Of a stretch of DNA of 64,000 bases, positions 25,117 through 44,400 are shown piece after piece. Source of the stretch: Croceivirga radicis (GTDB lineage: Bacteria; Bacteroidota; Bacteroidia; Flavobacteriales; Flavobacteriaceae); NCBI RefSeq assembly GCF_002072105.2, contig NZ_MTBC01000007.1, forward strand, positions 1 to 64,000. The letters are read 5' to 3'. The notes under the pieces were generated by a model. The model searched no databases and had not been told where the DNA came from. It saw only the letters and a list, made by a program, of their open reading frames with translations. Numbering within the stretch: the stretch's first letter is position 1; each line of letters begins with the position of its first letter. The position numbers and the translations under genes were made by a program.

Positions 25117-26955
25117 TTAGTCTATCTCTATAATCATGGCCGTTTTTGCAGGTACATTAATTGTATTGGCATTCTTAAATTGTTTACCGGTTAGCACATC
25201 TTTACCACTTACACTACCTTTTAATACTTCTTTATATTCAACAACATCCAATAGCTTGGCATTCGCATCTTTATTTAAAATAACCATTACCTTTTGGTGC
25301 TCATTGTACCTAAAATAAACATAAATATTATCCTTTGGCGCAAAATGTATAAGCTTTCCGTTGTGGATAACCTCAACATTTTTTCGCCAATTAAATAACT
25401 TGCTCAAATAAGCTTTTGCGTCTTTCTGTTCTTTTGTGAGTCCGTCTCCGGTGAAGGCATTTACTTTATCTTTTGCCCATCCGCCAGGATAATCCGTTCT
25501 AATAATGCCATGGTCTTCGGTACCCTTATTGCCCATTAGTATTTCCGTACCATAATAAATTTGAGGTATACCGCGAACGGTAGCAACATACGTCAATGCC
25601 AATTTTACCAAATCTGCATCTTCATTTAGTTGGGTGTAAATACGGCTCATATCATGATTATCTGGAAAAACCACCAAGTTTTTTGGATCTGGATATAAAT
25701 AATCTTGGCCCAACTCCTCATAAACCGCATTCCAAGAACCGGCGTCGTTTAAAGAGGTACTCAAGGCGTGTTGTATTGGAAAATCCATCACACTTTTTAA
25801 TTCAGAAGTATAGCCATTGGTATTCTCCTTGCCTTTTTGCCAATACGATACAATAGTTGGGCGGAGCACCCACTCTTCCCCAACTATATTAAAATTTGGA
25901 TATTCTTTCATCACAGCAGCCGTCCAATCTCGCATAAAATACATATCTGGATACGGATAGGTATCCATACGGATTCCGGCAATACCAGAATATTCTATCC
26001 ACCACAAGGTGTTTTGTATTAAATAGTTGGCCATAGACGCATTACGCTGATTTAAATCTGGCATGGTGGGCACAAACCAGCCATCAAAAAATTCTTTGGT
26101 GTCCTTTTTAGTAGCATAGGGGTCTAACACTACCGTCTTTTTGTGATTGGTTTGGGTGTAGGTATCCCATTGGTTGATCCAATCTTCCGATGGTAAATCT
26201 TTCATCCACCAATGTTCCAAACCACAGTGGTTGGCAATCATATCCATAATTACCTTCATTCCTTTATCAGAAGCTTTTTCTACCATCTTCTTATAAGATT
26301 CGTTGCTTCCGTAACGTGGGTCTACTTTATAGAAATCTGTAATGGCATACCCATGGTAGCTATAGCTAGGCATGTTGTTTTCTAGAATAGGATTGGTCCA
26401 AATGGCGGTAAATCCCATATCCTTAATCGCATCTAAACTATTAACAATACCTTGCACATCCCCGCCGTGTCTACCTCCTTTATCTTTTCGGTTGGGTTTT
26501 TCTAGCATGCCCGCAACAGCGTCGTTGTCTGGGTCTCCATTCACAAAACGGTCTGGCGTTATTAAGTAAATAGCATCAGTACTATTAAAACCGGCTATGT
26601 TTTTACGGTTGTTTTCACGTGCTTTTAGCTCATATTCATGAATGAATGTCGAAGTACCATTTTTGTGGAAGTCTAATTGTAAATTACCCGGTTGGGCCTG
26701 TTCACCTATTGCAATGGTTACAAATAGGTAATTGGGGTTGGCTGCTTTTTTAACGCTTTGTAATTGTACGTTTTCATAAGTTTTTAGTCTTACATCGTTG
26801 GCCGCAATGTCTTTTCCATAAATCAATAATTCTATCGAATTATATTCCATACCCACCCACCAATTGGGCGGTTCAACCCGTTCTATGGTATTTTGGCCCA
26901 ACAATGGTGTTAGGTTTAACACCATGATCATAACTAGTGTAATTGCAATCCTCAT
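25117..26955 (-). CDS. GH13 neopullulanase / cyclomaltodextrinase (SusA-like)
   Basis: A 612-residue periplasmic GH13 enzyme: signal peptide to about residue 20, a cyclomaltodextrinase-type N-terminal immunoglobulin-like domain (WWVGMEYNSIELLIYG), the (beta/alpha)8 barrel, and a short C-terminal beta domain. Catalytic residues are present: nucleophile Asp331 in GIRMDTYPY, acid/base Glu360 in IVGEEW, and Asp435 in FPDNHDMSRI; the first conserved region is DMIANH. It would cut imported malto-oligosaccharides or pullulan to glucose and maltose, as SusA does in Bacteroides. It follows the sensor-regulator gene by 113 bases and is the last gene of the starch locus. Confidence 0.92.
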   Translation of the reverse strand: MRIAITLVMIMVLNLTPLLGQNTIERVEPPNWWVGMEYNSIELLIYGKDIAANDVRLKTYENVQLQSVKKAANPNYLFVTIAIGEQAQPGNLQLDFHKNGTSTFIHEYELKARENNRKNIAGFNSTDAIYLITPDRFVNGDPDNDAVAGMLEKPNRKDKGGRHGGDVQGIVNSLDAIKDMGFTAIWTNPILENNMPSYSYHGYAITDFYKVDPRYGSNESYKKMVEKASDKGMKVIMDMIANHCGLEHWWMKDLPSEDWINQWDTYTQTNHKKTVVLDPYATKKDTKEFFDGWFVPTMPDLNQRNASMANYLIQNTLWWIEYSGIAGIRMDTYPYPDMYFMRDWTAAVMKEYPNFNIVGEEWVLRPTIVSYWQKGKENTNGYTSELKSVMDFPIQHALSTSLNDAGSWNAVYEELGQDYLYPDPKNLVVFPDNHDMSRIYTQLNEDADLVKLALTYVATVRGIPQIYYGTEILMGNKGTEDHGIIRTDYPGGWAKDKVNAFTGDGLTKEQKDAKAYLSKLFNWRKNVEVIHNGKLIHFAPKDNIYVYFRYNEHQKVMVILNKDANAKLLDVVEYKEVLKGSVSGKDVLTGKQFKNANTINVPAKTAMIIEID

Positions 26956-26958
26956 TGT

Positions 26959-26984
26959 TTTAGTTTTATTCAGTTAAAACTAAA
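26959..26984 (-). promoter_or_regulatory. Hairpin over the translation start region of the neopullulanase
   Basis: TTTAGTTTTA (26959-26968) and TAAAACTAAA (26975-26984) form a perfect ten-pair inverted repeat with a six-base loop. On the coding strand the 3-prime arm (TAAAACTAAA) ends three bases before the ATG at 26955, covering the A-rich tract where ribosomes bind in this group. It may be a regulatory leader hairpin; it lacks a T run suitable for termination. Confidence 0.4.
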
Positions 26985-27068
26985 GTAGGACGAAATGAGG
27001 GGAGTATCGTCTTAAATTATAAATTGGGAATTAAAAGCTATAAAATGAGACCAATTAAGAGGCTAATA

Positions 27069-29006
27069 CTAGTCTTGATTTAATTGATTAAAATATTCGC
27101 GGGGCGACTTGTCCGTTACCTTTTTAAATGAACGGTTAAAAGAGGATTTGGAATTAAAACCTACGGCCAAGGCAATAGCCAAGAAAGTCTGATTTTTATA
27201 TTTTTCGTCTTGTGCCCTATTTATAAAATCTTGTATTCGATATTGATTTACAAAATCTCTAAAGTTTTTATTAAAACCAGCATTTATTGCCCTTGATAAA
27301 GTATGTACGTTGGTGTTCATCTTTTCGGCCAGCTCTGGCAAGCTTAATTGTGGATTTAAATACACCTGCTCTTGGGTCATTATCTGGTGTAAATTGGTCT
27401 TTAATTGCGCTAACTCTTCCGTTTCAAGAACTGGTTTTTCTATTTTAGGTTCTTCTATTTCTTCCTCTGGTTCTGGCATCCTAAATATTTGTGGTTGCTT
27501 TATTGCAAAATATCCCAAGAAAAAAACTACCACAGAAAACACAATCCAAATACCATCAATTAAAAAATTAATTAGAAAATTGGCTGGTTGCTCTGTAAAA
27601 GTAGCATACACATCTACCGTTATAATTACCGTCCACAAGAGAAGGCAAATACCCAAAATTATTAATATGGTATTTAGATATTTTAGGTTTTGGTCCGTAG
27701 AATAATTGTGTTCTATATTTTTAAAATACCTGTTTACTATACCGTTAATTTTAAACCAATACCAAATATTGAAAGCCAAAGCTAGAACCACTATAACTTC
27801 ATACACAGCATATGGAGGCGAATCCATTGACTGAAACAAATTCTGTTCTATAAAGGTGTGGGTAGGTTTAAAAAAGAACGTTACGTAAACGATACATTGC
27901 AGTAAAAACGGTAGAAAATGTGGCCAATACTGCCAAATTGATTTTTTTGCGTGATGCAGTAATCTTTTAATATAAATAAGCAATGTTGGAGCATATAGAA
28001 AAAACACCAAATCCGTTAACAAGGATAGCTTAGGGTAATTGGTATAAATAACACGGTCATAAATAACCACCCTAGCAATGAGGGTAAAAGAGATAACAAA
28101 AATTAGTATACTAAGTGCTTGGTTGGCCCATTTATTATTGTTTTGATTTGAGTTTATAATAAAAATGAGAAAGAAACCCTGTAAGGCCGTTAAAACCAAA
28201 ACCAATGTGTACGGATTAAAAATACCGTAAGATTGGTCTTCCCAAAAGGCTATACTATCCTTAATTAGGGTTTTAGTACTCAAGATATTCACATCTAAAA
28301 CCCTGTTAGGCCTTGGTCTTCCATAGCTGTTACCTTCCACGGTTAACCAATTTCCCCTTGTATATTTATACTCTATTCTATTGCCATACACCGGAATAGA
28401 AATTTGATGAATGCCATTACCTATGTCCTGTAATTTATAGCGTTCATCACCTGGTACCCATCCATTAAAATTACCACAAACAAAAAGAGAAGTATTTGGT
28501 GGCGTATTATTAGGCAAGTCTACCACCTGTAAAACTATTTTATTGGTTTTTTCTTTCTTTAGTTGGTCTGCCCAACCTGCAACTTGAAGTGTTACGGTTT
28601 CTGGTTTTGAACTAGTAAAAGAGTGCTTTCTAACGTTTAGTGGTTGGCCATTTTTTTGAACCTCCACCGTTTCCCAATTACCACGTGTTATTTTATACGA
28701 AATCCAAGATGAATTATGGAATTGCTTGTTAGCCAATACGTAATTACCATTTTCTTGTAATTGAAAAATATAATTTTTATCTGCCGGATTCCAATTGTTA
28801 AAAGAGCCACTTAAATACAACGTATCTTTTACGTTGGTCTCTGGTGGAACGTAGTCTACTATAAAAGTAGTCTGCGCATTTAATTTTAAAAATATAGATT
28901 GTAATAAGAGTACTATTAAAACAACATACCTATACACGCTATATCCTTTTCTTTTGGTCGGACAATGCGTTTTTTTACTGGATAACAGTAAGCTAGTAGT
29001 AGTCAT
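27069..29006 (-). CDS. Membrane-spanning AraC regulator with two starch-binding-like domains
   Basis: A 645-residue one-chain sensor and transcription factor. After a signal or anchor segment (about 26-44) come two similar domains of about 90 residues: YLSGSFNNWNPAD (64-76) with SYKITRGNWETVE (103-115), and FVCGNFNGWVPGD (175-187) with EYKYTRGNWLTVE (212-224) and a final RPRPNR. These are CBM20/CBM48-like (starch or glycogen binding). Seven hydrophobic spans follow (about 266-510), then a charged linker (EPEEEIEEPKIEKPVLETEE) and a C-terminal AraC domain (about 545-645; LSLPELAEKMNTNVHTLSRA and FLAIALAVGFNSKSSFNRSF). Placed between the sus operon and the neopullulanase, it is the obvious candidate activator, sensing malto-oligosaccharide in the periplasm. 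It has its own terminator upstream and a plausible -7 box. The domain order is seen; starch as ligand is inference. Confidence 0.82.
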   Translation of the reverse strand: MTTTSLLLSSKKTHCPTKRKGYSVYRYVVLIVLLLQSIFLKLNAQTTFIVDYVPPETNVKDTLYLSGSFNNWNPADKNYIFQLQENGNYVLANKQFHNSSWISYKITRGNWETVEVQKNGQPLNVRKHSFTSSKPETVTLQVAGWADQLKKEKTNKIVLQVVDLPNNTPPNTSLFVCGNFNGWVPGDERYKLQDIGNGIHQISIPVYGNRIEYKYTRGNWLTVEGNSYGRPRPNRVLDVNILSTKTLIKDSIAFWEDQSYGIFNPYTLVLVLTALQGFFLIFIINSNQNNNKWANQALSILIFVISFTLIARVVIYDRVIYTNYPKLSLLTDLVFFLYAPTLLIYIKRLLHHAKKSIWQYWPHFLPFLLQCIVYVTFFFKPTHTFIEQNLFQSMDSPPYAVYEVIVVLALAFNIWYWFKINGIVNRYFKNIEHNYSTDQNLKYLNTILIILGICLLLWTVIITVDVYATFTEQPANFLINFLIDGIWIVFSVVVFFLGYFAIKQPQIFRMPEPEEEIEEPKIEKPVLETEELAQLKTNLHQIMTQEQVYLNPQLSLPELAEKMNTNVHTLSRAINAGFNKNFRDFVNQYRIQDFINRAQDEKYKNQTFLAIALAVGFNSKSSFNRSFKKVTDKSPREYFNQLNQD

Positions 29007-29097: not shown

Positions 29098-29126
29098 AAA
29101 AGGGTTGTTACAAGAACAACCCTTTT
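29098..29126 (-). terminator. Terminator of the susCDE-amylase operon
   Basis: AAAAGGGTTGTT (29098-29109) pairs with AACAACCCTTTT (29115-29126) around a five-base loop, followed by T residues on the leftward strand. It lies 45 bases past the amylase stop. Confidence 0.85.
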
Positions 29127-29170: not shown

Positions 29171-31456
29171 TCAATTTCCAGTAATAGTAAAAGTATTTGT
29201 GAATAAATCTAATGTTATGGTATAATTTCCAGCAGCGGCAACGGCAATATTAGCTCCATCTTGTTCTACACTACCATCTCCGTTATTATCTCCTAAATTA
29301 ACGGCCCAATCATCATTAAATCTAAATTTCATTTCACCAGCCACTAAATCCAAGGTAATGGTCCAGACTTGGTTAACCGTATCATACATCATGTTGGTAT
29401 CAGCATCCCAACCACTAGGCGTAGCACTACCTATAACACCCCAATTACCAAGGGTAAATGAATTGTTTGCCACATCTAAATCTATTTGATAGCTACCCGC
29501 AGTTACGGCAATATTATCACCACCATTATCCAACACACCATCTGCGCCAGTGTCCCCTAGGTTTACATCCCATCCATTATTGGCTCGAAATTTTAATTCA
29601 CCATCTGCAAGTGTTGTACTTACCGTCCAAACGTTTCTATCAAAATCATAAGACATATCCGTATCTGGATCGTCCCAACCGTTAGGCGTGGCACTACCTA
29701 TAATTGCCCAAGTGTTGGCAGACCAGGTATTATTGGCCAAGTCAACATTTATCTCATAATCTTGAGGTCCTGCCAAAACTATGTTATTACCAGGCGAAGC
29801 CAATACACCTGTTGTACCATCTCCCGCATCTGCGTAAATTCCATTATCCCAATTTGGAGCATCTGTAAACTTAAATTCGTTACTTGCTTCTGTAAAACGA
29901 ACGTGACCGCTAAACGTACCGGCTAAGTTTGGTAATTCTACCGCATTTAAGGCAGGAGCAGATGATGGGTCCCAACCTTGGTAACCTCCTGGAACATATA
30001 ATACCTCTGGGAAAGCCAACTGTTCGTCTTCTGTAGCTGCCCAAATGGCAAAACCGTTGGCTGGGGCTTTTAACGTAACCAAACCACTAGCATCTGATTG
30101 TTCAAAAATCAAATATTCTTCTGTGTAATCCTTAATATTGGCACTAGCCCAATGCGTTTGTACTTCTCTGGATACTTCTTCCCCACTTAAGTTAATATAT
30201 AATACCAAGCCTGGTTTTTCTGCATCGCCACCACGAGTAGCCACAAACTCTTGATTAGAAACATGATTCACTGTCCAATCCCCAGCAGCTAATTCTGAAC
30301 GAATCTGAATTAACTGGTTGATTTTAGCTTTTTGCTCTTCACCGCTATCCTCATAGTGCGAATAAAATACACAAGGATATCCCGGAGCACTCATAATATA
30401 TGCATAAGCATGGGTTTCAAACGCATCTGGAAATTCATTACTACCATCTCTAGCTTCCGTATCATGGTTACCCACAAAAGTTACCGCTTTCTCTGGCATG
30501 GTAGATAGTAAGCTAGGTTTAACCAACTCGTTTAAATTACCGTTTAAAAAGGCATTGCGCATATTAAAGAAGTTAGGAAAATCAAAGGCATTAGCACCAG
30601 AGGCTTCTACCCATGGACCAACTACACCTTCTACATTACCATCAAAATTTTCACCTACGCTATAACCACCCACGGTAGCTATCCAATCTTTAACAACATC
30701 TGGAGAAAAACCTTTTACAAAATCGAATCTCCAACCGTCAATTTTCAACGTATTCATGTAGTAATTGGCAACCGATTCTTCGGACTGCCATAACCAATCG
30801 CGCACATAGTCATTCTTTAAATCCAAGTCTGGAAAACCACCAAATCTGCCTTCATCCTTTAAATTTTCAGCATTAGGCAAGTAGTTTAACCAAGTTCTAT
30901 TGAATAAACCAGATGCTGGCTCAAACAAGGTATAGGTTTCAATTTGTCTAAACTCGTTATACTCTAACTGTCCACCAGAATTGTGGTTTAGTACAATGTC
31001 TGCAATAACCGCAATATTATTCTCGTGCGCAGTACCAATCATATTTTCTAATTCTGCACGATTACCAAAACGGGTTTCTACAGTTCCATGCTGTTGAAAG
31101 TCACCAAAATCGAAGTAATCCGCCGGGTCGTACCCCATAGAAAAACCACCACTTTGACCTTTAGAGATTGGCGGAATCCAAATGGCATCAATTCCGTTGG
31201 CTGCCCAGCTGTCTAGTTTAGATTCTACATTGTTCCACCAAATACCGCCCTCGGTAACGTCCCAATAAAAGGCTTGCATCATAACACCATTACCCGGTAC
31301 TAATGCATCTGTTCTACCAGCTGCCGAGCCAGAAGGTAAATCTTCTGCATCGTTAGCTTCTTTAACTTTTAAGGGCGAAAAATCATCGTTAGTACAAGCT
31401 GCGAACACAAAGGTTAACGCAGCCAGACTTAGATTTATATATTTTTTGATTTTCAT
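29171..31456 (-). CDS. Surface GH13 alpha-amylase with three SusE-like binding modules
   Basis: A 761-residue lipoprotein (Cys21 in VFAACTND). Residues about 55-480 are a GH13 barrel of the bacterial liquefying/archaeal type: WIPPISKG, GYDPADYFDFG, DIVLNHNSGG, nucleophile Asp245 in GWRFDFVKGF, Glu269 in YSVGENFDG and Asp332 in FVGNHDTEAR. The rest is three tandem modules of about 90 residues (near 486-580, 583-671 and 673-761); the last two start WAIIGSATPNGW and WGVIGSATPSGW and match the modules of the SusE/F protein encoded next to it. It would cut starch at the cell surface like SusG, with its own extra binding sites. It is the last gene of the susC-susD-susE operon, 11 bases past susE. 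Confidence 0.93.
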   Translation of the reverse strand: MKIKKYINLSLAALTFVFAACTNDDFSPLKVKEANDAEDLPSGSAAGRTDALVPGNGVMMQAFYWDVTEGGIWWNNVESKLDSWAANGIDAIWIPPISKGQSGGFSMGYDPADYFDFGDFQQHGTVETRFGNRAELENMIGTAHENNIAVIADIVLNHNSGGQLEYNEFRQIETYTLFEPASGLFNRTWLNYLPNAENLKDEGRFGGFPDLDLKNDYVRDWLWQSEESVANYYMNTLKIDGWRFDFVKGFSPDVVKDWIATVGGYSVGENFDGNVEGVVGPWVEASGANAFDFPNFFNMRNAFLNGNLNELVKPSLLSTMPEKAVTFVGNHDTEARDGSNEFPDAFETHAYAYIMSAPGYPCVFYSHYEDSGEEQKAKINQLIQIRSELAAGDWTVNHVSNQEFVATRGGDAEKPGLVLYINLSGEEVSREVQTHWASANIKDYTEEYLIFEQSDASGLVTLKAPANGFAIWAATEDEQLAFPEVLYVPGGYQGWDPSSAPALNAVELPNLAGTFSGHVRFTEASNEFKFTDAPNWDNGIYADAGDGTTGVLASPGNNIVLAGPQDYEINVDLANNTWSANTWAIIGSATPNGWDDPDTDMSYDFDRNVWTVSTTLADGELKFRANNGWDVNLGDTGADGVLDNGGDNIAVTAGSYQIDLDVANNSFTLGNWGVIGSATPSGWDADTNMMYDTVNQVWTITLDLVAGEMKFRFNDDWAVNLGDNNGDGSVEQDGANIAVAAAGNYTITLDLFTNTFTITGN

Positions 31457-31467
31457 AATTTCTTGAT

Positions 31468-32781
31468 TTATTCGATAGTGTAGGTTGGGTTATCGGCATC
31501 TGCCAAATACAATGTTATGGTATACGTACCTGCACTTACTGGAATGTTGGCTCCGTCTACCTCTAACGTACCGTCATTACCATCATCTCCATAATTAAAA
31601 TCCCAAGCATCATTGGTACGGAATTTAATTTCACCGTCTAACAACGTAACATTTTCCAAAATCCAAACGCCTTCGTTGGCATAATCCGGTGTAAAACGTA
31701 CGTTAGGACCGTCCCACCCATTGGGAGCAGCATCACCAACCAAGCCCCAAATATCAATAGGTTCTAAAGTATATAGGTTATTGGTGAAGTCTACCGAAAC
31801 TAGATAGTTACCAGCTTCTACCATAATATTATCACCATTAGCTTCAATAGTACCATCTGCACCGGTATCACCAAAGTTTACGGCCCAATCGTTATTTTGT
31901 CTAAACTTCATTTCACCATTGGTAAGTGTTACCACTGCCCTCCATTGGTCAGAAGAAGAGTCATACGTTAAAGGCGTATCAGGACCATCCCAACCATTTG
32001 GTGTAGCATCACCAACCAATCCCCATGAGAATGGCTCTATGCTGTAGGTAAAGTCGTTTAAGCTAAACATTACTTTGTAAGTACCAGCCGTTACCTGAAT
32101 GTTATCACCGCCTTCGTCAAGAATACCATCTGCTCCTGTATCGCCATAATTAACGGCCCAATCATTATCTCTTCTTATCTTAAGCTCGCCGTCTACCAGT
32201 GTAACATAAGCCACAAATTCGTTAGCGATAGCCGTACTGTAAACCGGCACATCTGGCCCATCCCAACCATTAGGTGTTGCAGAACCCACAAGACCCCAAG
32301 GCGAGCTTAGATCAAATGTAGTTGCATACCCTGTAATGGTTAAAAGTTGTGGGCTGGATGCCGCTACAACCTCTTGGCCCAACATGGCCTCTACCCAAAT
32401 CTTAACCTCATTTTCCAAACCGGCTAAAGCGCCAGCATCTGCTACCGATTCATTCAATTCTTCTGCTAAGAATTCTTTACTTAAAACATTGCCTACGTTT
32501 ACACGAGATGGTTCTGCTTCTGTTGCGGCGTCTACGCCTACCACCACATTATAAGTGGGCACTGCACCAGTAAAGCCAAAATCTGGAGCGGTCCAATTTA
32601 GGCTTAGTACGGTTTCGCCCGTCATGTCTCTAGTTAATTCTAGTGCATCCGTGGAAGATAGTGTAAGCTGTGTACTTGCCTCGCTACTTACTCTAATATT
32701 CTCATCATCATCGCTACAACCTGTCACCAAAAGTGCCATTGCCACGATGGATGCATATATAAATGCTAAATTTTTCTTCAT
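31468..32781 (-). CDS. SusE/SusF-like surface starch-binding lipoprotein
   Basis: A 437-residue lipoprotein (Cys22, LLVTGCSDD). An N-terminal SusE-type domain (about 30-155) is followed by three tandem modules of about 92 residues beginning WGLVGSATPNGWDGP, WGLVGDATPNGWDGP and WGLVGDAAPNGWDGP. Each contains the pattern G-E-[LIM]-K-[FI]-R-x-[ND]-[ND]-x-W, which supplies the Trp platform and polar residues for alpha-glucan binding in SusE/F. It holds starch at the surface for the amylase and SusCD. It starts 11 bases after susD, in the same transcript. The repeats differ from each other enough to be stable at the DNA level. Confidence 0.9.
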   Translation of the reverse strand: MKKNLAFIYASIVAMALLVTGCSDDDENIRVSSEASTQLTLSSTDALELTRDMTGETVLSLNWTAPDFGFTGAVPTYNVVVGVDAATEAEPSRVNVGNVLSKEFLAEELNESVADAGALAGLENEVKIWVEAMLGQEVVAASSPQLLTITGYATTFDLSSPWGLVGSATPNGWDGPDVPVYSTAIANEFVAYVTLVDGELKIRRDNDWAVNYGDTGADGILDEGGDNIQVTAGTYKVMFSLNDFTYSIEPFSWGLVGDATPNGWDGPDTPLTYDSSSDQWRAVVTLTNGEMKFRQNNDWAVNFGDTGADGTIEANGDNIMVEAGNYLVSVDFTNNLYTLEPIDIWGLVGDAAPNGWDGPNVRFTPDYANEGVWILENVTLLDGEIKFRTNDAWDFNYGDDGNDGTLEVDGANIPVSAGTYTITLYLADADNPTYTIE

Positions 32782-32792
32782 CGTTTTAGTTT

Positions 32793-34352
32793 TTAGTTAG
32801 TATAGCCTGGGTTTTGTTCCAATAATGGATTTGCTTGTAATGCTTCTAAAGGAAATGGAAACAAGTTGTAATGGTCTGGAATGGAAGTACCATCTGCCAC
32901 ATTACCTTTCCAAGGCCAATTGTAAGTTCCTCCAGTAAAGCGACCAAAACGAATCAAATCTTGTCTTCTATGACCTTCATAGTACAATTCGCGTGCGCGC
33001 TCATCTATCAAGAACTGCTCAGTTAAATCTGCTTCTGTAATATTTCCACTAGCATCACCGTATGCTCTTTCTCTAAGGGCATTTATGTAATCTACAGCCT
33101 GAGCTGCAGAACCACCACCACCTCTAAAAAATGCTTCTGCATACATAAGATAGGCATCTGCCAAACGGAATAATGGAATATCGGTATCTGAGAAACGACT
33201 CTGACCAGAACTTCCGTCTGAGTATTGGTTTTGGAATTTAGTAGTTGGATAACCACTTTCCCACGTACGGTAATCGTCCATTTCATAACTATGCCCCTCT
33301 GTCCAGAAAATAGCTCTGCTATCTGCTGTGGTCTCTAAATCGCCAAACAAACCATAAATAGCAGGCGTACAACGGTGACCAAACCAACTTTCAGAATTTC
33401 CGAATTCCGCTATTGGCATAGTAGTATCTCCTAAACTACCATTAGTTAGATATGTAGCCGTACCAAAAGATTGTACAGTATTTCTATCTCCTATAATTGG
33501 GAAAATTATTTCTGGAGAGGTAAAATTATCACCTTGAAATATAGATTGGTAATCATCATCCAAAGTAAATGGCGATTCTAAAATTACCTTTTCACTATAC
33601 GTTAATGCATCTGCATATCTATCGGTACCCGTATACACCGCTGCGTTTAAATACACCTTTGCCAATAACATGTGTACGGCTGCTTTATTTGCCCTACCGT
33701 ATTCATTATTTGCAGGTATTGTTTCTTCTACCGCCAACAATTCGCTTTCCACAAAATCAAATACCTCCGTACGTGTGCTCTTTGCACGGCTTACACCTGT
33801 TACACCGTCTGCTTCGGTCACTAAGACAACGCCACCAAAAGTGTCCATTAAATAATAATAGAACAACGCACGTAAAAAGCGCGCCTCGGCAACATACAAT
33901 TCCGCATTGGCATCATCTGTCTTTTGCACATCTATAATGAAGTTATTGATTTGTGCAATATTGAAGTAACTTCTATTATATAAATAACCAAAGAATTTGT
34001 TTGTTGGCACCCAGTTGGTAGCAGTAGTTAATGGGTCTAAGCCACCATCTCCCCAACGATTTTTAGCAATATCCGTAGTAAGCTCTTGCATGTTCCAAAT
34101 TGCCCTAAAAAATACCGTTTCTCCTGGGTCATCGCCAGCTATATCTGCTTGCTGATTACCACTACCCGGAATACCAATACCATGCAATGCCAAACCACCG
34201 TATAATTTACCAAGGATACCCAAGGTGGCATTTGGGTCTGAATCTAACAAGTTATCCAAACTTTGTTCTATTCTAGGCTCCGTATTTAAATCGTCTGTAC
34301 AGCCTACCAAGAGGGTAGCCGTAAAAAGTCCGAATATTATTTTTTTAATCAT
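32793..34352 (-). CDS. susD: SusD-like starch-binding lipoprotein
   Basis: A 519-residue RagB/SusD protein: lipobox TLLVGCTDD (Cys18), the SusD helical core (RFLRALFYYYLMDTFGGVV) and the family end (NLFPFPLEALQANPLLEQNP). Its neighbours (SusE/F, a GH13 amylase, a neopullulanase and a regulator with starch-binding domains) make starch or another alpha-glucan the likely ligand. It starts 13 bases after the susC stop. It is distinct from the susD-like protein at 3606-5075, which belongs to a different locus. Confidence 0.92.
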   Translation of the reverse strand: MIKKIIFGLFTATLLVGCTDDLNTEPRIEQSLDNLLDSDPNATLGILGKLYGGLALHGIGIPGSGNQQADIAGDDPGETVFFRAIWNMQELTTDIAKNRWGDGGLDPLTTATNWVPTNKFFGYLYNRSYFNIAQINNFIIDVQKTDDANAELYVAEARFLRALFYYYLMDTFGGVVLVTEADGVTGVSRAKSTRTEVFDFVESELLAVEETIPANNEYGRANKAAVHMLLAKVYLNAAVYTGTDRYADALTYSEKVILESPFTLDDDYQSIFQGDNFTSPEIIFPIIGDRNTVQSFGTATYLTNGSLGDTTMPIAEFGNSESWFGHRCTPAIYGLFGDLETTADSRAIFWTEGHSYEMDDYRTWESGYPTTKFQNQYSDGSSGQSRFSDTDIPLFRLADAYLMYAEAFFRGGGGSAAQAVDYINALRERAYGDASGNITEADLTEQFLIDERARELYYEGHRRQDLIRFGRFTGGTYNWPWKGNVADGTSIPDHYNLFPFPLEALQANPLLEQNPGYTN

Positions 34353-34365
34353 GTTCAGTTTGTTT

Positions 34366-37350
34366 TTAGAAATCTACATTCAATCCTAAAGTATAGGTAC
34401 GTGGTCTTGCATAAGGTGCTGATTCTATACCATCAAAATTTTCTGGATCTAAACCATCGTAATCTGTAATAACAAATAGGTTATTGGCAGATCCGTAAAT
34501 TCTTAAGGCCAATTTTTTATCCTCGAAAGGTTTAAGATTGTAACCAATAGTAATATTGTCTAGCCTTAAAAAAGAAGCATCGGATAAATAAAAATCAGAC
34601 AATGCTTGGTTATCAGACGGTATATCTGAAAATCCATTGTATTGCCCATTATTATAAAGGTCTAGGGTGTTGGTTATAAATCCTGAATCTGTTTGCGGTA
34701 TTGCCGCCAAAGAATAACCTCTATTCAATAGGTTGGCGTTATACACCTTGCCCCCTAATTGTCCTCTTAAGTTTGCCGTAAAATCCAGGTTTTTATACTG
34801 AACAAACGTACCAAAACCGTATGTCCACTTAGGTTCAAACGGGATAAATCTTCTATCTGCATCAGAGATAACACCATCTCCATTTTGATCTACAAAAGCG
34901 TCTTCTATAGCGCTACCATTAGCATCATAAACCTGCTCATATAACCAAAAAGTACGGTTGCGCTCACCAACTGCTGTTTGCCCAATATTAACACCTGTTC
35001 CACGACCTATACCTCCGCCGCTAGAAAATTGGGTAATGTTATCCAAATCGGTAATATAAGTTTCGTTGAACGCTGCATTGGCATTCAATTCTAAATTAAA
35101 GTCCTCTGTCTGTATAGGTCTATACTGCAAGGCAGCCTCAAAACCTTTACTTTCTGTTTCGCCAACATTGCTTACAAATCTGTTTCTCAAGGCTCCTTCT
35201 GATTGGGGCACCTCTGCCAATAAATCCGTGGTGTTTCTAATATAACCATCAACACTACCACTTAACCTATTAGAAAAGAAGTTAAAATCTACACCAATGT
35301 TATAAGTTGATGTTTTTTCCCAAGTTAAATCTGGATTAAAGGCATTGGCCCTGTAAGTTGTTACCACTTGATTTCCAAAAATATAGCCTACGGTAGGGTC
35401 GCCATCATCATACAAAGCGGTGTAAGGGAAATAACCCACTGGTCCCGTGATGTCTTGTTGGCCCGTAAGACCCCAACCTAATCTTAATTTTAATTGGTCT
35501 ATCCAATTGGTATTTTCCAAAAATTGCTCTTCATCTAATTTCCATGCCAATGCTGCCGCAGGAAAATACCCCCACCTATCATCTTCTGAGAATAAAGAAG
35601 AGGCATCTGCCCTTACCGAAGCCGTAAACAAAAAGCTATCATATAATGTTAGGTTTGCCCTGGCAAAGAAAGATTGTAGATTAAGTTCTGTATAATACTT
35701 AAACGGTTGCTGGGATTCCCTAAAACCATTCTCTGTTGTAGTTGGAAAAGTGGTTCCTTGGGTCGTAAAATTTTGATAGGCATAACCGGCTTGTACATCC
35801 AATCTATTAATAGCGCCTTCAAAATCTTTAGCATAATTTAAATAGGCATCTAATAAGTGATCTCTCTTTATCTGATTTTCCCCGTAATTAGGGCTAAAAT
35901 TGTTAAATATGGGTAAACCATCAAAAACCGTGTAGGCGGCCACTGCGCTAGGTAAAAAATATTCGTTTATAGTTGATTCAGAATAATCTATACCCGTATT
36001 TACTACTGCTGTTAACTCCTCAAAACCATGGATTTTATATCTAAGTTCAGCACTACCAATAAAACGGTCTGCATCTTCATTACGCTCACGCTGTTTTAGT
36101 AACGCCAATGGATTTGCCGGCCCTACGATACCTTGATCGTCCGTAATTTGATAAAAGCCACCAAAAATACCACCTTGTGGGTCATAAATTGGCAATGTTG
36201 GGTTTGCTGCTAGGGCACTACCAATAGCACCACCATCTGGCTGGTCTTTTTCCGTAGCAATCTCTTTGGCATTAATAGTAACCTTTAAATGCTGGTCAAA
36301 AAATTCTGGTGCAATATTTAGAGATGCCGTATACCTATCTAACTGCGATTCTTTTAAAATACCTGCAATTTCTGAATGACCAAAAGAAGCTCTAATTGGT
36401 ATTTTGTTAAAAAGATTTGCTCTAGCCGTAAGGTTGTTATTAACCGTGTAAGAAGTTCTGTATATTTCTTCTTGCCAATTAGTGTCGTATATGGTTCCAT
36501 TTAAACCTAGTAAACCAGCACTGTCTGGATAGGTATTCTGGATAAAATCTACATACTCGGCAGAGTCAAAAATATCAATTTGATTACTAAGAGTACCTAC
36601 TTGTACGTTAGAAGAGAAATTAAATTGCGGTGCTCCTTTGGTTCCAGACTTAGTAGTGATTATAATTACCCCGTTGGAAGCCCTAGAACCATAAATAGCT
36701 GTAGAAGAAGCGTCTTTAAGTACCGAAAACGACTCAATATCGTTTGGATTTATTAAAGTTAATGGGTTTGCCTGACCAGCAGGATTTTGGTTAGACAACG
36801 GAATACCATCAATAACGATCAATGGGCTATTGTTCGCGTTAAGTGAAGATCCACCACGTATACGGATGTTGATTCCTGCATCCGGGTCACCACCATTGTT
36901 TACCACACGAACACCGGCCGATTTACCGGTTATCATTTGGTCAGCGGTTGTAATAGCACCTTTGTTTAAGTCTTCTGCCGTTAATAATTGCACAGCACCT
37001 GTAGCATCCTTTTTGGTAGTAGTACCATAACCTATTACCACCACCTCTTCCAATTGAGACACATCGCTCTCCAAAGCAACATTTATGGTATTTGCGGTAA
37101 CGGTAACTTCTTTTGATTTTAATCCTATGTAGGAAAAAATTAAAATACTTCCCGTTTCTGCCTCAATAGAATAGTTACCATCAAAATCTGTTGTAACTCC
37201 AGTAGTTGTACCTTTAATTACAATTGATGCGCCTGGTAAAGGTGTACCAAAATCTGCATCAGTGACCGTTCCTGTAACCGTAGTTTGTGCCAATACAAAA
37301 ATTGGAGCACAAAGAAGCCACAGAAAAATCATCGAAATTTTCTTTCGCAT
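34366..37350 (-). CDS. susC: SusC-like TonB-dependent malto-oligosaccharide transporter
   Basis: A 994-residue SusC/RagA protein. Signal peptide ending IFVLAQ; carboxypeptidase-like domain (KGTTTGVTTDFDGNYSIEA); plug with EEVVVIGYGTTTKKDATGAV, INIRIRGGSSLNANNSPLIV and DASSTAIYGSRASNGVIIIT; then a large barrel ending YTLGLNVDF. It imports starch fragments bound by SusD. It heads the operon susC-susD-susE-amylase. The leader upstream of the start contains a ten-base inverted repeat described separately. Confidence 0.94.
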   Translation of the reverse strand: MRKKISMIFLWLLCAPIFVLAQTTVTGTVTDADFGTPLPGASIVIKGTTTGVTTDFDGNYSIEAETGSILIFSYIGLKSKEVTVTANTINVALESDVSQLEEVVVIGYGTTTKKDATGAVQLLTAEDLNKGAITTADQMITGKSAGVRVVNNGGDPDAGINIRIRGGSSLNANNSPLIVIDGIPLSNQNPAGQANPLTLINPNDIESFSVLKDASSTAIYGSRASNGVIIITTKSGTKGAPQFNFSSNVQVGTLSNQIDIFDSAEYVDFIQNTYPDSAGLLGLNGTIYDTNWQEEIYRTSYTVNNNLTARANLFNKIPIRASFGHSEIAGILKESQLDRYTASLNIAPEFFDQHLKVTINAKEIATEKDQPDGGAIGSALAANPTLPIYDPQGGIFGGFYQITDDQGIVGPANPLALLKQRERNEDADRFIGSAELRYKIHGFEELTAVVNTGIDYSESTINEYFLPSAVAAYTVFDGLPIFNNFSPNYGENQIKRDHLLDAYLNYAKDFEGAINRLDVQAGYAYQNFTTQGTTFPTTTENGFRESQQPFKYYTELNLQSFFARANLTLYDSFLFTASVRADASSLFSEDDRWGYFPAAALAWKLDEEQFLENTNWIDQLKLRLGWGLTGQQDITGPVGYFPYTALYDDGDPTVGYIFGNQVVTTYRANAFNPDLTWEKTSTYNIGVDFNFFSNRLSGSVDGYIRNTTDLLAEVPQSEGALRNRFVSNVGETESKGFEAALQYRPIQTEDFNLELNANAAFNETYITDLDNITQFSSGGGIGRGTGVNIGQTAVGERNRTFWLYEQVYDANGSAIEDAFVDQNGDGVISDADRRFIPFEPKWTYGFGTFVQYKNLDFTANLRGQLGGKVYNANLLNRGYSLAAIPQTDSGFITNTLDLYNNGQYNGFSDIPSDNQALSDFYLSDASFLRLDNITIGYNLKPFEDKKLALRIYGSANNLFVITDYDGLDPENFDGIESAPYARPRTYTLGLNVDF

Positions 37351-37362
37351 TTGTGAGTTAAT

Positions 37363-37414
37363 TTTTAGTTAGAAGTTCTAGGTCTTTACACCTATTTCAA
37401 TTTGCTAACTAAAA
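37363..37414 (-). promoter_or_regulatory. Nested inverted repeat in the susC leader
   Basis: TTTTAGTTAG (37363-37372) and CTAACTAAAA (37405-37414) are exact complements with 32 bases between, inside which TAGGT (37379-37383) and ACCTA (37390-37394) form a smaller stem. On the coding strand the 3-prime arm (CTAACTAAAA) lies 12 bases before the ATG, over the A-rich ribosome entry region. No T run is present. It may act on translation of susC. The remaining gap up to 37815 holds no convincing gene. Confidence 0.4.
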
Positions 37415-37751
37415 CTACTGGATGCGCTCTTCTGGTTCGCTTCAAATTATAAAATGACCTAAAATCAGTATATGACCCCTTCTATTCTAAATAGTGCGCT
37501 TATTTTTAAATTGTTGTTTTTCAGGTATTTATTTTCTATTGTAGCTTCTGCGTAACCAATTAACCAACAATTGTCAGGTTGTGTTAAAATTTGATTTATA
37601 TACGTTATTTGGAACAGTTGTTTTTCATAAATCGTAATATATCCCTGTTTAATTCCGAATATAAAAATCACATCCCTAGCAAAAAGAGAAAACCTCAATA
37701 TAACCTTTGTTCTTTTTCTTAATTGGGTTAACAACTAACCGATATAAGCAA

Positions 37752-37947: not shown

Positions 37948-38262
37948 ATGAACCGTTACACCATTTGTATACAATTATGCCAACAATGTATGGTAGATTG
38001 CCAAAATTGTTTGGCCAATATGGCAGGCAAACAAAGTATGAACGACTGCCCTGTGTGCTGTATGGAGTGTATTGATGCTTGCTTGGCTTGTATAAAAAGT
38101 ATGAGTGCCAATTCTAAGTTTAGTAAAGCCTATGCTGCCATATGTGCCGAAATCTGTGATTGGTGTGCAGAACAATGCGGTGCGCACAGTCATGAACACT
38201 GTCAAATTTGTGCCGCCAGTTGTAAAGCTTGTGCGGATGAATGTAGAAAGATAGCAGCATAA
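37948..38262 (+). CDS. Four-helix copper-storage-like cysteine-rich protein (Csp / DUF326)
   Basis: A 104-residue protein with 20 Cys, spaced as C-x3-C and C-x2-C along predicted helices (CIQLCQQCMVDCQNC, CPVCCMECIDACLAC, CQICAASCKACADEC). This is the pattern of Csp copper-storage proteins, in which Cys side chains inside a four-helix bundle hold many Cu(I) ions. It has no signal peptide, so it matches the cytosolic Csp3 type; family assignment is firm, metal and capacity are inferred. It ends just before a bidirectional terminator and faces the tRNA-Pro gene. Confidence 0.88.
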   Translation: MNRYTICIQLCQQCMVDCQNCLANMAGKQSMNDCPVCCMECIDACLACIKSMSANSKFSKAYAAICAEICDWCAEQCGAHSHEHCQICAASCKACADECRKIAA

Positions 38263-38448: not shown

Positions 38449-41400
38449 TTATCTATACAATGTAAAATGACCAACAAATTGTTGCTTGTCTGCATCATTG
38501 GCATTAACAACATACCAATAATCTCCTGTTGGTAAAGGAGAGCCTTCGTATGTACCGTCCCAGCCCTTTACTTCGTTTAAAATTGCAACCACCCTGCCGT
38601 ATCTATCAAAGATTTTAACCTCCATGTTCGGAAATAAGTCTGCATTCTTTACAAACCAATTTTCGTTCATCACATCTCCGTTGGGTGTAAAGAAATCTGG
38701 AAATTCTGGCATACCTTCAAAATCAAAAGGCATAAATATTATAGACTCGCAACCCTGGGCATCTATTACCCTAATTTCTATGTTAGAGTCGTAATTAATG
38801 GTAAATACGTTTTCCGCCCCGTAAGACTCACCATTAAAGAAGAACTCGTAATCACCAAAGCCGCCTATTGCCGTAGCCGTAATCTCACCTGGACCCGTTT
38901 GTTCCGCAGACAACGTTAATGGTTCAAAGGTATCTACACTAAACTCCACAAAGGTTACACAACCATTTTCATGATAGGCATACACCGTATGTTCGCCTGC
39001 TGGTAGATTTCCAAAAACACGTTCCTCAGAAGCCATAGATACATCATCTACATCCAATGAAAATAAAGTTCTAGACAGTTCACTCCTATCCATTAAATCT
39101 ATGGTAACAGTGCTAAATGGAAATATACCTTCGCAACCGTAAACCACTTCTGCAGTTGGCACCAAGTCCACACCACTATTAATAGGTACTATGACAGTGG
39201 TTTCACAGCCCATGGCATCTCTCACGAAAAACACATAAGACTCACCTCCCAATAGATTCTCATATAAGAGGGTATCATTTCTTTGGTAATCTTCTTCTAA
39301 TGAAGAATTAAATGCTACCTCATAATACGATTGTCCTGATATTGCGTCCACAAAAGGTGTTCCTCCTTGTATATTAAGTTGTGCGCTACCATCTGCAACC
39401 CCTAGACAAGTTTCTGGTGTTGCCGTAAACGTAGCCGTTAACTCTTCTGGTGAAAATACACGCACGGTCTCTGTTTCTGAACAACCTTGGGAATCCTGTA
39501 TTAGAATAATATACTCCGTACCAGATGGGCTACCTTGCAAGTCCTCAAAAGTGTAAACACCCGGGGTATCAACATCATTAAAGAACTCATTAAAATTAGG
39601 AGCAATGGCGAATTGTATTAATCCTTCACCTCCACTAGTAACTTCTATGGTTATACTACCATCTTCTTCTCCACTACAACTTACGTTAGTAGTAGAAATT
39701 TGAAATTCTATAGGATCTGGCCTTTCTATTACAAATGGCCCCTCTACATCTGAACAGGTTACACCACTGGTTACCGCAACGTAATAATCCGTACCTTCTG
39801 GCAGCGCCTCAAAGGTACCGTCTGGCTGTGGACCTCTAACCAAAGTAGCACCGGCGTTTGGATTAAAAGGATCCCCCGGATTACCGGAAAATAAATAATA
39901 ATTATTAGAGCCCACACCTCCAGAAGAGAAAGATTCTATACGCCCATCTGTTTCTGAAGCACAGGAAATATCATCAGGTAAATTTACTACCAGATCCAAG
40001 TCTTGTGCATCTACCAAGGTTAGACCATTAGATGCAACTGGATCACAAGTATTGTTAAGGTTCACTTTTCTTACATCAAACTGGTAAAAGCCCGGACCAC
40101 CATCTATGATAACCGATGTAACACCTGATCCCATAGAAATGTAGGGGTCGTTAATTGGGTCTGGTGTATTAACAGATCTATACTCATAGTCAAATCCGGC
40201 CTCTGGATTGGTCACCGTTAAACGCATTTGTCCTAAACCACCACATCCTGGTGCTCTAACCTGTACCAAATTAGGTATTATTGCTGGTGGCGGATTTACA
40301 TAATACGGTTCTGTTACCCCAACACAAGAATAACTAGAAGAAATTTCTATGGCATACCACCCTTCACTTATATACCCTTCTCCACTCACACCAATAAAAG
40401 TTGGCGAATCTTGTAGACCACTTCTTGATAATTCGTCCGTGATATTATTACTACCTAGATAAATTAATTGGTATTTATAGCCTGCTCCCGCAACGCCTCC
40501 AGATGCCCCAGCCGTTGCCGTATCTGCATCTCCTGTTGTTGGATCAAATGCTTCTAATACCGCATTATTACCACCAGGACACACCAATCCCGCAGGTTCT
40601 CTAATTCCTGCAACAATGGGGTCTATTGGATTTAAAGTAATATCATCAAAAGTTATACACCCTTCAATGTCCCTAACTTCTACTCGGTAATCACCACTAG
40701 AAAGGTCTTCAAATTCATTTATTGCAGAAAACGGACTTACCTCTGTTGGATAGGTACCCGTACCATCATCCAGCAATAAACGATATTCATAAGGCGAAAC
40801 ATCCCAACCCCCCGTTGCAATAGCTTCAATGTTTCCTGTATTATCCAGACAACTCACATTACCAATTTCCATGGTACTCACCGCCAAAGGACCACTTGGC
40901 GTTCTAATGGTTGCCAAGTTACTTTCTGCAGAACAGAACGGTGTATCCAAAGATGTAATACGTACCACAAAGTTACCTCCTGGCAGGCCTGCTATTCTTG
41001 CGGCATCTCCATTAATATCCGGGAAATTAGCCGTATTAAACGAGCCAGTATTGCCGGTAGAAACTTGTGTTCCCGCACCGTCTACGGCAAAAACCTCGTA
41101 GCTATAATTCCCGGAATAATTGGATACATCTATAAAAAGTGCACCATTGGCATCCCCATCACAAAGTATAGGGGCAGCCTCAGATATTAATGCAGTTGGT
41201 ACAATAGGTTCATTAACAGTATATTTCGGCAATGGATAAGAACATCCATTTGGAGATAAATCATTTACAACAAACAAATATTCACCGGCATTTGGTAGGT
41301 TAATAGTTGTTGTTGCAGCGCCCCCACTGTTAAAAGGACTTCCCGGCACGGCAGGTGTCACTTCTATTTCATAATTAGTTGTTCCGGTTACCGTTACCTC

Positions 41401-44400
41401 CACCAACTCATCAGTAGCACACGTTAAGGCCGTGGTATTGGTAATTGTAGGTACTACATCTGTAGGTGGCGAAATGATAACGTCAAATTGGTCTTGACAA
41501 CCATTACCATCTATGGCATAAACCGTTATGGTTTGTGTGGTGCCATCATCTATAATTTCAAAAGTGTTTGTAGATTGATAATTACTAAAACCGGTTATAC
41601 TATATTGATAGCCAGCCGTACCTACATTACCGGTTGCATTGGGATCAACACTTACCGTTATAATGGTACTACTAAATCTATTTGCTCCTACTTCACATGC
41701 AAAATCTGGAGCTGTTGCACCTATTTCAAATACTGGTGGTTCTTCTATTTCAATATTGTCTCGGCGATCTTCACATCCTCTATCAGATACAACCACAACA
41801 TCATAAAAACCTTGAACAAGACCATTAAATACGCCCGAAGCATTTGTCTGTACAATTGTAGCTGTACCTGCTTGGTATAAGTTATAGGTAAAAGGACTAT
41901 CTACAGCACTAACGGGATCAATTAATACGTCTATAGAACCATCATTTGCACCATTACAAGAAATATCTTGATCCACAACCGAATCAATAACAGGCGGTAC
42001 GGGGTCGTCCAGATTTATGGTAACCGTGTCATTACATCCCGTTTCATTATCTGAAACAAAAACCCTATAATTTCCTGTGGTTAAATTGGTAAAAACACCC
42101 GCCGTTCTATCCCCAGTAAGCGTTGGTCCTATATACACTCCAAATTCATCTTGTAGTTCAAAGGTGAAATCATCGCTACCGCCCACAACATCAATAGCTA
42201 TGGTACCATCGTTATCAAAACAATTGGGCATGGTACTAAACGAACCACTGACCGTTAAAAATTCATAAACATCAGCAATTCCCTGACTGGTACAACCATC
42301 CGCATCTTGCACATCTATAGTGTAATTTCCAGGAGAATTAACGTAAAATGTAGCCACGTAGTCCGTACCATTATCCACTCCAATTTGGGTGTCTCCACCC
42401 ATGGTAAATCTTGGTGTATCTGCCAAAGTATTTGCAATACGTACTTGAATTTCAAAACTGGTAGCCGTAACATCACATTGATTAACCACATCTATTGTAG
42501 GCGCTGGTAAATCTGGACGCAAAGCGATTATAGTTGCGATATCAAAAGAGGTACAACCCGAAGCATCCCTTACATATACATCATAATCTCCAGCAGGACC
42601 TACAAACGTTGTTTCATTGCTATAATCTCCCACTGCTGGAATAGCGCCATCTGGCATAAAAGCAAATTCGTAAGGACCGCCATCGCCACCATAACCTTGT
42701 ACGGTTATCTGGCCAAACGCATTACAATTAGCTGGCTCTTCTGAAAGTATAATATAGCTAGGCAGATTTTCTTCTATTGTAACCGAACCTGCAGCATTAC
42801 AATTGTCTGTTTGGTTGGTTACAATAACCTGATAGTTACCTGCCAGCTCCGCTATAGTATCTGAATAGGGAACCATACCTGGGGTAACCGTTCCTATTGG
42901 GGTTATAGAGCCGTCATCAGAATTCATTAATTCTACCACCAATGTATCCCCAAGGTTAAAACCATCTATTGTATATTGTATTTCTCCATTTCTATTTACA
43001 TCACAAGCACCAGGGGTAGAAGTTGCTGCAACAGAAAGTAAATTTGGTCCACTTACCGGTGGTATTTCATCTTCATAAATACATCCTGTACCTAAATCCG
43101 TAACTTCAACCGTATAGGTTACGCCAAACAATAGATTAGTAAAAGTATGTCTTCTTGGCGGGCTATTTGGTGTAACCGCAGGGTTTGGGTCTCCTACCAA
43201 ACGGATTAAAAACGGTCCTACCCCACCAACAATCTCAACCGTGTTGGAAAAACCTGAAGGTCCACATGTGGGCGCAATCACAGGGTCTGGTACTACATCT
43301 AAAGTGGTCTGTGTAATCGTCACATTATCCGTGTCCGTACATCCATTGGCATCCACCGTAATTACGCGGTAATTACCTGGCTCTAAGCCAGTAAATGATT
43401 CAGAAGTACTTGCAGTTGGGCCAATGGTGGCAATTTCTGCACCAAACTCATCTTGCAAAATATAGGTAAAATCAGGAACACCATCTGTAACATTAGTGAT
43501 ACTAATACCACCTAATATGGTTCCTGAGGAACAGGTGGCTATATCTTGTACTACAGTTGCATCTGGCGGAGGAGTACCATCCGTAGGAACGGTAAAGCTT
43601 TGTGCTACCGTTACACAACCTCTAGCATCTCTAACCTGATAGGTATATGTTTGCCCAGCTTGAAGATTGGAGAAGGCGGTCTGTGAGGACCACCCACCTC
43701 CATCAAAATCAACTTCATAAGGGGGTAATCCACTTGTCGCGTCTGGCGTAATGATTACCCGGCCATTATTCGTTTGTCCACAGCTAGCTGGACTCACATT
43801 ATGAGTCGCCGGATTTATATTTGCCGGCGGATTCATTATTATTGGAGAGGATGTAGCAACACAACCCTCATTATCGGTTACCCTAAACACATAGGTACCG
43901 TCTACATTGGTAAAATGGCTAAATGTATTTGTGGTTAAAGGTTGTGGCGCAGACCAAGTAACCCCATTATCTGAGCTAATTTCATAATTCTTTGGGCCAG
44001 AACCCGAAAGATAACCTCTACTTGCCCTTACCTCAATTTCGCCATCTAAACCACCACAGGGTATCTCTGCGATGATATTAGCGGTTACACGTAATTGTGG
44101 TCTTATGGTAACATTAACCGTATCCGTACAACCATTAGCATCTTCTACTTCTATTGTATGCGTTCCCGTACCCACATTTGTAAAGGTGCCGGTTGGTTGC
44201 GTAGCACCACCGTCCATTCTAAAAGTATAAGGAGGCCCCGCAGAACCACCACTGGCCGTTACTACTACCGTAGCACCGGTGCTTGGCTCAAAACAATAAT
44301 CCGTACTTGCGTCTAGCGCAATTACTGGTGCTTCTATCCTATTTAAAGAAAAGGTAAACGTATCCGTACAACCTTCTATATCTTCAACCGTTAAGGTATA

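Follow-up and report, generated by a model that had tools for sequence, protein, structure and literature searches.

A predicted membrane-bound AraC-type regulator with starch-binding-like domains at an alpha-glucan utilisation locus of Croceivirga radicis

The starch locus

In the 64,000-nucleotide stretch of Croceivirga radicis DNA analysed here (contig NZ_MTBC01000007.1, positions 1 to 64,000; hereafter, the window), a gene on the minus strand (27069..29006) encodes a 645-aa protein with an ATG start. The protein combines a predicted signal peptide, two domains resembling carbohydrate-binding module (CBM) families 20 and 48, seven predicted transmembrane (7TM) helices and an AraC-type helix-turn-helix (HTH) domain; we refer to it as the regulator. 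Along the minus strand, the gene order is susC, susD, susE, alpha-amylase, a terminator-like site, the regulator gene and a neopullulanase-type GH13 gene. Family profiles identified the neighbours as a SusC TonB-dependent transporter (34366..37350; TIGR04056), SusD (32793..34352), a SusE-like protein (31468..32781), an alpha-amylase with three SusE/F-like stretches (29171..31456) and a neopullulanase/cyclomaltodextrinase-type GH13 enzyme (25117..26955), in agreement with the complete starch locus reported in a preliminary description of the window. All five genes are on the minus strand and are predicted targets of the regulator, with susD, susE and the amylase gene belonging to the susC operon. 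An intrinsic-terminator-like site with a 12-bp stem and a T-run (29098..29126, minus strand) lies between the amylase gene and the regulator gene, so the regulator probably has a transcript separate from that of susCDE-amylase; across 13.9 kb, the terminator scan returned 16 sites of this kind, compared with 9.5 in shuffled sequences.

Architecture of the regulator

Alignment, AlphaFold model and hydropathy all place a signal-peptide-like helix at residues 23-44 (28875..28940, minus strand, as for all parts of this gene). In the aligned two-domain relatives, a signal-like helix at 23-41 is followed by (A/G)-Q, and the N-terminus is presumably cleaved by signal peptidase. Sensor domain 1 spans residues about 45-146 (28569..28874; W72, K105, W111), and the membrane-proximal sensor domain 2 spans residues about 155-257 (28236..28544; W183, K214, W220). 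Two motif pairs recur across these domains: GSFNNW (67-72) and GNFNGW (178-183), and YKITRGNWETVE (104-115) and YKYTRGNWLTVE (213-224). The preliminary description had correctly given both duplications and the extent of the open reading frame.

Seven transmembrane helices were predicted within residues 265-503 (27498..28214), at 265-286, 292-316, 325-351, 357-378, 397-422, 438-471 and 477-503. In the AlphaFold model, seven long helices lie between the signal-like helix at the N-terminus and the HTH domain, and hydropathy peaks of the window regulator coincide with the positions of all eight helices. A hydropathy count at a single threshold gave 5 to 11 segments across the 15 proteins compared; because this plain count varies, the number seven, which had been proposed from the window sequence, rests on the model and the alignment. 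Among Foldseek matches to the full model were G protein-coupled receptor structures (E 0.003-0.02), which we took as generic seven-helix similarity. Assuming that the beta domains lie outside, inside loops 2 and 3 are richer in lysine and arginine (KRLLHHAKKS; KINGIVNRYFKN), the outside loops have 1, 1 and 0 such residues, and the first inside loop has none. This distribution is a modest fit to an N-out, C-in topology, and the model would place the sensor domains in the periplasm.

The AraC-type HTH domain occupies residues 559-640 (27087..27332). The HTH_18 match there (PF12833, E 8.6e-14) agrees with the C-terminal AraC HTH first described; PF12833 and PF00165 both exceeded the Pfam cut-off, and AraC-domain PDB structures were also matched, which assigns the regulator to the AraC family. 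Between the last helix and the HTH domain lies an acidic linker with a predicted local distance difference test score (pLDDT) below 50 at residues 509-527, and its length differs among the aligned relatives. Relatives with the same domain order were traced down to 32-36% identity; because such distant relatives keep this order, the architecture is more than a chance arrangement.

Sensor domains

The CBM-like assignment rests on relatives, a profile search and the predicted fold. When 20 related sequences were combined into a profile and searched against PDB sequences, the AMPK-beta glycogen-binding domain came first, with a weak match (E 0.0038). Up to E 1, 21 of the 22 PDB sequences listed were alpha-glucan modules or enzymes (AMPK-beta, pullulanase, branching enzyme and the Bacteroides amylase BoGH13A-Sus), and the remaining one was a cyanophage protein. 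The profile alignment superposes G-x-F-N-x-W, K and G-x-W of the regulator sensor on AMPK-beta, at positions that we take to be sugar-contact residues in that protein.

A model of the sensor part alone (mean pLDDT 91.3, pTM 0.85) shows two similar beta domains with a beta-sandwich fold of the starch-binding type. With this model, 14 of 17 Foldseek matches (E up to 0.001) were BoGH13A-Sus, CBM41 or CBM20 chains, and the matches include the STBD1 CBM20 with maltotetraose (TMt 0.63), which upholds the proposal of two starch-binding-like domains. A homologous domain at the C-terminus of a Cohnella protein that also has three CBM25 stretches (L057) reached 30.9 bits for CBM_20 (cut-off 23.3), and a five-copy lipoprotein (L047) passed AMPK1_CBM as a whole-protein score (36.0 versus a cut-off of 26.8). 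The weak profile match and the model suggest that the sensor domains resemble alpha-glucan modules, namely the AMPK-beta glycogen-binding domain, CBM20, CBM41 and the Bacteroides amylase with CBM98/CBM48.

Alignment of 13 full proteins distinguishes the two domains. The membrane-proximal domain is present in all 13, with G178, F180, N181, W183, P185, K214, R217, G218 and E224 invariant and W220 kept in 11 (it is not found in L044 and L045). Three proteins (L046, L131, L132) have no distal domain, and in two of the 10 that have one (L124, L125) another residue stands in place of its lysine. Because the proximal domain is always kept and the distal domain is sometimes missing, the proximal domain is, judging from the alignment, the core sensor, and a reading in which two domains follow one chain is unneeded. 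The earlier suggestion that the repeat indicates chain binding is weakened to the same extent.

Related domains also occur in other kinds of protein. By eye, two 582-aa lipoproteins (L047:9995-11743 and L048:10031-11779) contain five copies of the CBM20/48-like sensor domain, and histidine kinase-like and LytTR-type response regulator-like genes (348 and 253 aa; by eye) lie directly upstream. In seven other stretches (L051, L058, L059, L061, L063, L064, L073), a sensor-like domain is N-terminal to an esterase-like remainder (Pfam Esterase was tested on L051). These esterase genes are divergent from susC-susD-susE-like genes in several Mucilaginibacter loci and in a Bacteroidetes metagenome-assembled genome, and this linkage to starch-type loci was unexpected.

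Distribution and genomic linkage

A full-length relative was present in 8 of 397 genomes in a family-level sample, taken to be Flavobacteriaceae, the window genome included. In a phylum-level sample of 395 genomes, 10 had a match at E 1e-60, and four of these, including that of the window, had at least one sensor domain. One scan of genome contigs added L038-L046, among which L039 is Euzebyella saccharophila. The sample contains two more genomes from the genus of the window, and these yielded neither a full-length regulator nor a SusD match at E 1e-100.

In total, we collected 18 distinct CBM-7TM-AraC proteins. Seventeen adjoin susC/susD or a GH13 gene, counting three neighbourhoods read with 1.5-kb flanks only (G227, G382, G236); the eighteenth (L046) is on a 5-kb contig, where its neighbourhood is uninformative. 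The expectation that this domain order would be linked to alpha-glucan loci in other genomes was therefore borne out. Within 1.5-kb flanks, a GH13 match was found for 7/7 full-length relatives (L009-L015), and 0/22 of the best-scoring sensorless 7TM-AraC paralogues (L016-L037) had a match to the window's SusC, SusD, SusE or GH13 proteins.

Sensorless 7TM-AraC paralogues are common in the family. On contig C20 of the window genome, one such gene (L171:7996-9213) has a susC-like gene and a probable susD as neighbours, and the control of uptake loci may thus extend to sensorless relatives. A midpoint-rooted tree built on the 7TM-AraC part (44 rows) places all 15 CBM-bearing proteins to one side of a branch supported at 97/98, a grouping that is consistent with a single fusion.

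Predicted operators and promoter boxes

Alignment of the regions ahead of susC in seven related loci revealed one nearly invariant block, which is repeated before the neopullulanase gene. This block is a predicted 24-bp, TCATTTTATAAAATGAAGCGAA-like operator. In the window, it reads GGTCATTTTATAATTTGAAGCGAA upstream of susC (37436..37459, minus strand) and TCCCAATTTATAATTTAAGACGAT upstream of the neopullulanase gene (27006..27029, minus strand). In register, the sites read GGTCATTTTATAAwwTGAAGCGAA before susC and nnYCAnnTTATAATwTAAGwCGAy before the neopullulanase gene. The Bacteroidetes -7 consensus is TAnnTTTG. In the related loci, the operator is followed at 18 nt (19 in L038 susC) by TA plus a -7-like promoter box, for example TAGTTTTA, TAGTTTAG or TAATTTGG; that of L126, TAGATTAA, is the weakest. 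The window boxes are TAGTTTTA after the susC operator (37410..37417, minus strand) and TACTTTAG after the neopullulanase operator (26980..26987, minus strand), each at a distance of 18 nt.

A matrix was derived from 12 distinct sites in the seven loci and applied to three held-out loci (L124-L126), whose regulators show 48-50% identity. It scored 32.1, 27.8 and 32.3 bits before susC and 32.2, 21.6 and 19.4 bits before the neopullulanase gene, whereas the highest of 100 shuffles per site gave 8.3-17.1 bits. Nothing was found with the matrix before the amylase gene of L124 or before the regulator genes of L124, L125 and L126 (best 8.6 bits, on the reverse strand), L044, L045 and L131. In the whole window, there was no third site over 10.9 bits.

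Nine of the 397 genomes contain the exact pattern TCANTTTATAANNTGANNCGA, namely 7 of the 8 with the regulator and 2 of the 389 without it (Fisher p 1e-12, for genomes that are not independent). In those seven regulator genomes, every exact match lies at this starch locus, and the eighth (G370) has two sites with one mismatch at its locus. With one mismatch allowed, one regulator-less genome (G265) among the 16 tried also has a site. A wide pattern, itself written from the two window sites, gave four matches in the window with up to two mismatches, compared with a shuffle mean of 3.84, and only the two exact ones stand out. Because matches with two mismatches occur in all 16 genomes tried, with or without the regulator, only exact or one-mismatch matches are informative.

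Regarding the two regulator-less genomes with an exact match, the site in G059 (C1:2363491-2363511; L169:9492-9512) is flanked by two small genes of the opposite strand, and a sensorless 7TM-AraC gene (L169:10036-11169, 377 aa) lies about 0.5 kb away. This site hints at a related regulator-site pair with another role, and at a wider family that reads related sites. The match in G219 has no 7TM-AraC neighbour among the open reading frames compared.

LacI at related starch loci

A SusD at least 70% identical to that of the window occurs in 8/397 genomes, five with the regulator and three without (G162, G021, G057). We read the loci of these three, chosen as the closest by SusD identity rather than at random, and three further regulator-less loci (G265, G163, G159) from the next four ranks; the ranking drew on those 125 genomes, out of 397, in which SusD was matched at E 1e-100. 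All six have a LacI gene next to susC, and within the stretch read they also carry an MFS-type transporter gene, a beta-phosphoglucomutase-like gene and a GH65 gene. Pfam confirmed LacI and GH65 in L121 only, and the MFS and beta-phosphoglucomutase-like genes were named by eye. G021 has a pair of LacI genes, which lie at opposite ends of the locus. The operator matrix scored at most 9.8 bits in the six LacI-type susC promoters, with no operator.

None of these four families was matched in the ten closer regulator loci (the window, L038-L043 and L124-L126), and the distant locus L044 has LacI and the CBM-7TM-AraC regulator together. A search with a LacI query found a homologue in 15/15 genomes, with or without the CBM-7TM-AraC regulator. 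In the window genome, LacI and GH65 genes lie on contig C17 (L133:7451-10803) beside a different SusC/SusD pair; in the six regulator-less loci, this module adjoins the starch genes. An excerpt of PMC11633381 describes predicted LacI, MFS and GH65 genes in the sus loci of Bacteroides species abbreviated Bf and Bu, and reports that a SusR homologue is lacking there, a comparable split between LacI and SusR.

Proposed mechanism and alternatives

We consider it likely that the regulator is an inner-membrane, one-component activator of the alpha-glucan utilisation locus that senses imported maltooligosaccharides in the periplasm. This proposal builds on the computed domain order, fold class, alpha-glucan linkage, shared operator and co-occurrence of operator and regulator; we infer the periplasmic topology, the ligand, the transfer of the signal, activation rather than repression and the regulator as the protein that binds the operator. 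SusC and SusD would import maltooligosaccharides into the periplasm, where the neopullulanase would trim them. With the signal peptide cleaved and the two CBM20/48-like domains in the periplasm, the proximal domain, aided by the distal one in most relatives, would bind maltooligosaccharides, and binding would shift the seven-helix bundle. The cytoplasmic AraC domain, still held at the membrane, would then bind the operator, which overlaps the expected -33 region, and recruit RNA polymerase, activating susCDE-amylase and the neopullulanase gene. The regulon would consist mainly of the regulator's own locus. The lack of an operator before the regulator gene and the terminator-like site would fit a steady sensor level, by analogy with the steady transcript level that part of PMC11633381 reports for SusR.

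Several observations weigh against this proposal. In the window regulator, no CBM family exceeded the Pfam cut-off (the best was X25_BaPul_like, E 0.11), and no CBM cut-off was passed by the nine relatives scanned. The full-length model is moderate (pLDDT 74.5, pTM 0.47, 10 sequences), two-domain TM-scores against solved structures are low (about 0.1-0.3), and three of the 17 best Foldseek matches to the sensor model (two pilins and an S-layer protein) fall outside the alpha-glucan modules. According to the available portion of PMC11633381, the CBM48 of Bacteroides ovatus SusG binds no maltooligosaccharides and its CBM98 does; because of this example, a CBM48 fold need not bind. In the four distant regulator loci tested, the matrix detected no site ahead of susC (L044, L045, L131) or ahead of the GH13 gene (L132). 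In addition, the exact operator pattern was drawn up once the sites in G120, G370 and G211 were already known, such that its count is not blind for these genomes, and the search that yielded eight regulator genomes scored at most three candidates per genome.

The regulator may control the locus without sensing the glycan directly, if its CBM-like domains dimerise or contact a partner (a loaded protein of the periplasm or outer membrane, for instance) and the ligand is recognised at another place, perhaps in the 7TM bundle. The frequency of sensorless 7TM-AraC paralogues indicates that the 7TM part can function without such domains, and one of these paralogues adjoins a susC/susD-like pair in the window genome; an excerpt of PMC11633381 also gives a Bacteroides amylase CBM48 that does not bind. 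However, the residues aligned with AMPK-beta are kept in domain 2 of 13/13 proteins (the last W in 11/13), and 17/18 sensor-domain regulators are at alpha-glucan-type loci, and on balance we regard an indirect role for these domains as unlikely. Ligand-triggered proteolysis that frees the AraC part as a soluble factor, as in RsgI-type signalling, would suit the low-confidence, acidic and length-variable linker at 509-527; we find it quite improbable, as no protease family was matched among the locus proteins scanned (only seven and six proteins) and the seven-helix part is alignable throughout distant relatives.

The remaining alternatives concern the DNA site. There is a slim chance that the regulator represses the locus until the ligand releases it: the site is imperfectly palindromic, which is common for repressors, but AraC-family factors are mostly activators, and the site ends 18-19 nt before the -7-like box and overlaps the expected -33 region, as for activators that replace the -33 element. 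It is very unlikely that the conserved motif belongs to another factor, such as a LacI encoded elsewhere in the genome, and that the regulator has some other target or none at all. A LacI-GH65 cluster with a SusC/SusD pair of its own is indeed present in the window genome (C17, L133); however, a LacI homologue occurs in all 15 genomes searched irrespective of the regulator, whereas the exact motif tracks the regulator (7/8 with, 2/389 without) and is absent from the six LacI-type susC promoters.

How a polysaccharide locus learns of substrate outside the cell is a central question for Bacteroidota. If the regulator is a direct activator as proposed, then a single gene with a single sensor module, together with one 24-bp site and a pair of promoters, would form a small, complete and directly testable circuit, which could perhaps be rebuilt as a starch-responsive switch. 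The proposal also points to a possible function for the many 7TM-AraC proteins that lack a sensor. Evenly balanced, in our judgement, is the broader possibility of a new class of receptor-type transcription factors in which a CBM acts via a seven-helix bundle (N outside, C inside) on an AraC domain with a dedicated compact operator, replacing LacI at starch loci in scattered Bacteroidota, and in which the sensorless 7TM-AraC proteins form a large, as yet uncharted group of membrane receptors sharing that output.

Two further genes lie upstream of susC in the window. A 104-aa cysteine-rich protein (37948-38262, plus strand) appears by eye to be of a four-helix copper-storage-like type. Beyond it, a 2832-aa repetitive, secreted-looking protein (38449-46947, minus strand) has a C-terminal part that by eye resembles a domain of the gliding or type IX secretion system type.

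Comparison with known regulatory systems

A CBM-7TM-AraC regulator was not found described in our searches of the open-access literature, which covered titles and the beginnings of abstracts. Hybrid two-component systems join a periplasmic sensor to an AraC-type output in one protein at polysaccharide loci, as outlined in part of PMC3878776, and the regulator is predicted to do likewise. Unlike them, the regulator has no histidine kinase, receiver or propeller family match (Pfam, up to E 1). The 7TMR-DISM receptors consist of an extracytoplasmic domain, seven helices and a cytoplasmic output, and the regulator is predicted to share this plan; no Pfam 7TMR model was matched by the regulator up to E 1 or by nine relatives up to E 0.1-0.5. 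RsgI sensors are of the CBM type. In Clostridium thermocellum, the RsgI anti-sigma factors are membrane substrate sensors that control degradation genes, with proteolysis within the membrane helix, according to PMC12203970. The regulator would likewise be a substrate-sensing membrane protein controlling degradation genes; however, RsgI signals by intramembrane proteolysis and controls a sigma factor rather than acting via its own DNA-binding domain.

The starch regulator of the LacI-MFS-GH65 type adjoins homologous susCDE-amylase genes; however, it has a LacI HTH domain and a periplasmic-binding-like sugar domain (L121), with no membrane part expected, and the susC promoters of its loci are without the CBM-7TM-AraC operator. 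Neither of these LacI-type domains was found in the regulator by Pfam.

The closest precedent in principle is SusR of Bacteroides thetaiotaomicron, which sections of PMC3878776 and PMC11633381 present as a single-polypeptide membrane protein with a periplasmic sensor and a cytoplasmic DNA-binding part that senses maltose and activates starch genes. DUF6377, a tentative stand-in for the SusR family that told us nothing firm, had no match over the cut-off in the genome or among the Pfam matches of the regulator. The preliminary description had presented a membrane-resident factor that reads starch fragments as a new way to run such a locus; that principle is already known from SusR, and the protein family, the sensor and the operator are what appear to be undescribed in the searches made. 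From its signal-like helix, two beta domains, seven helices and HTH domain, the regulator is predicted to follow a SusR-like plan, with one membrane polypeptide, a periplasmic sensor and a cytoplasmic DNA-binding part. The DNA-binding part of SusR, compared here by description, is stated to resemble no other known factor, whereas that of the regulator is AraC-type, and the regulator would add a further type of starch-locus regulator beside SusR and LacI.

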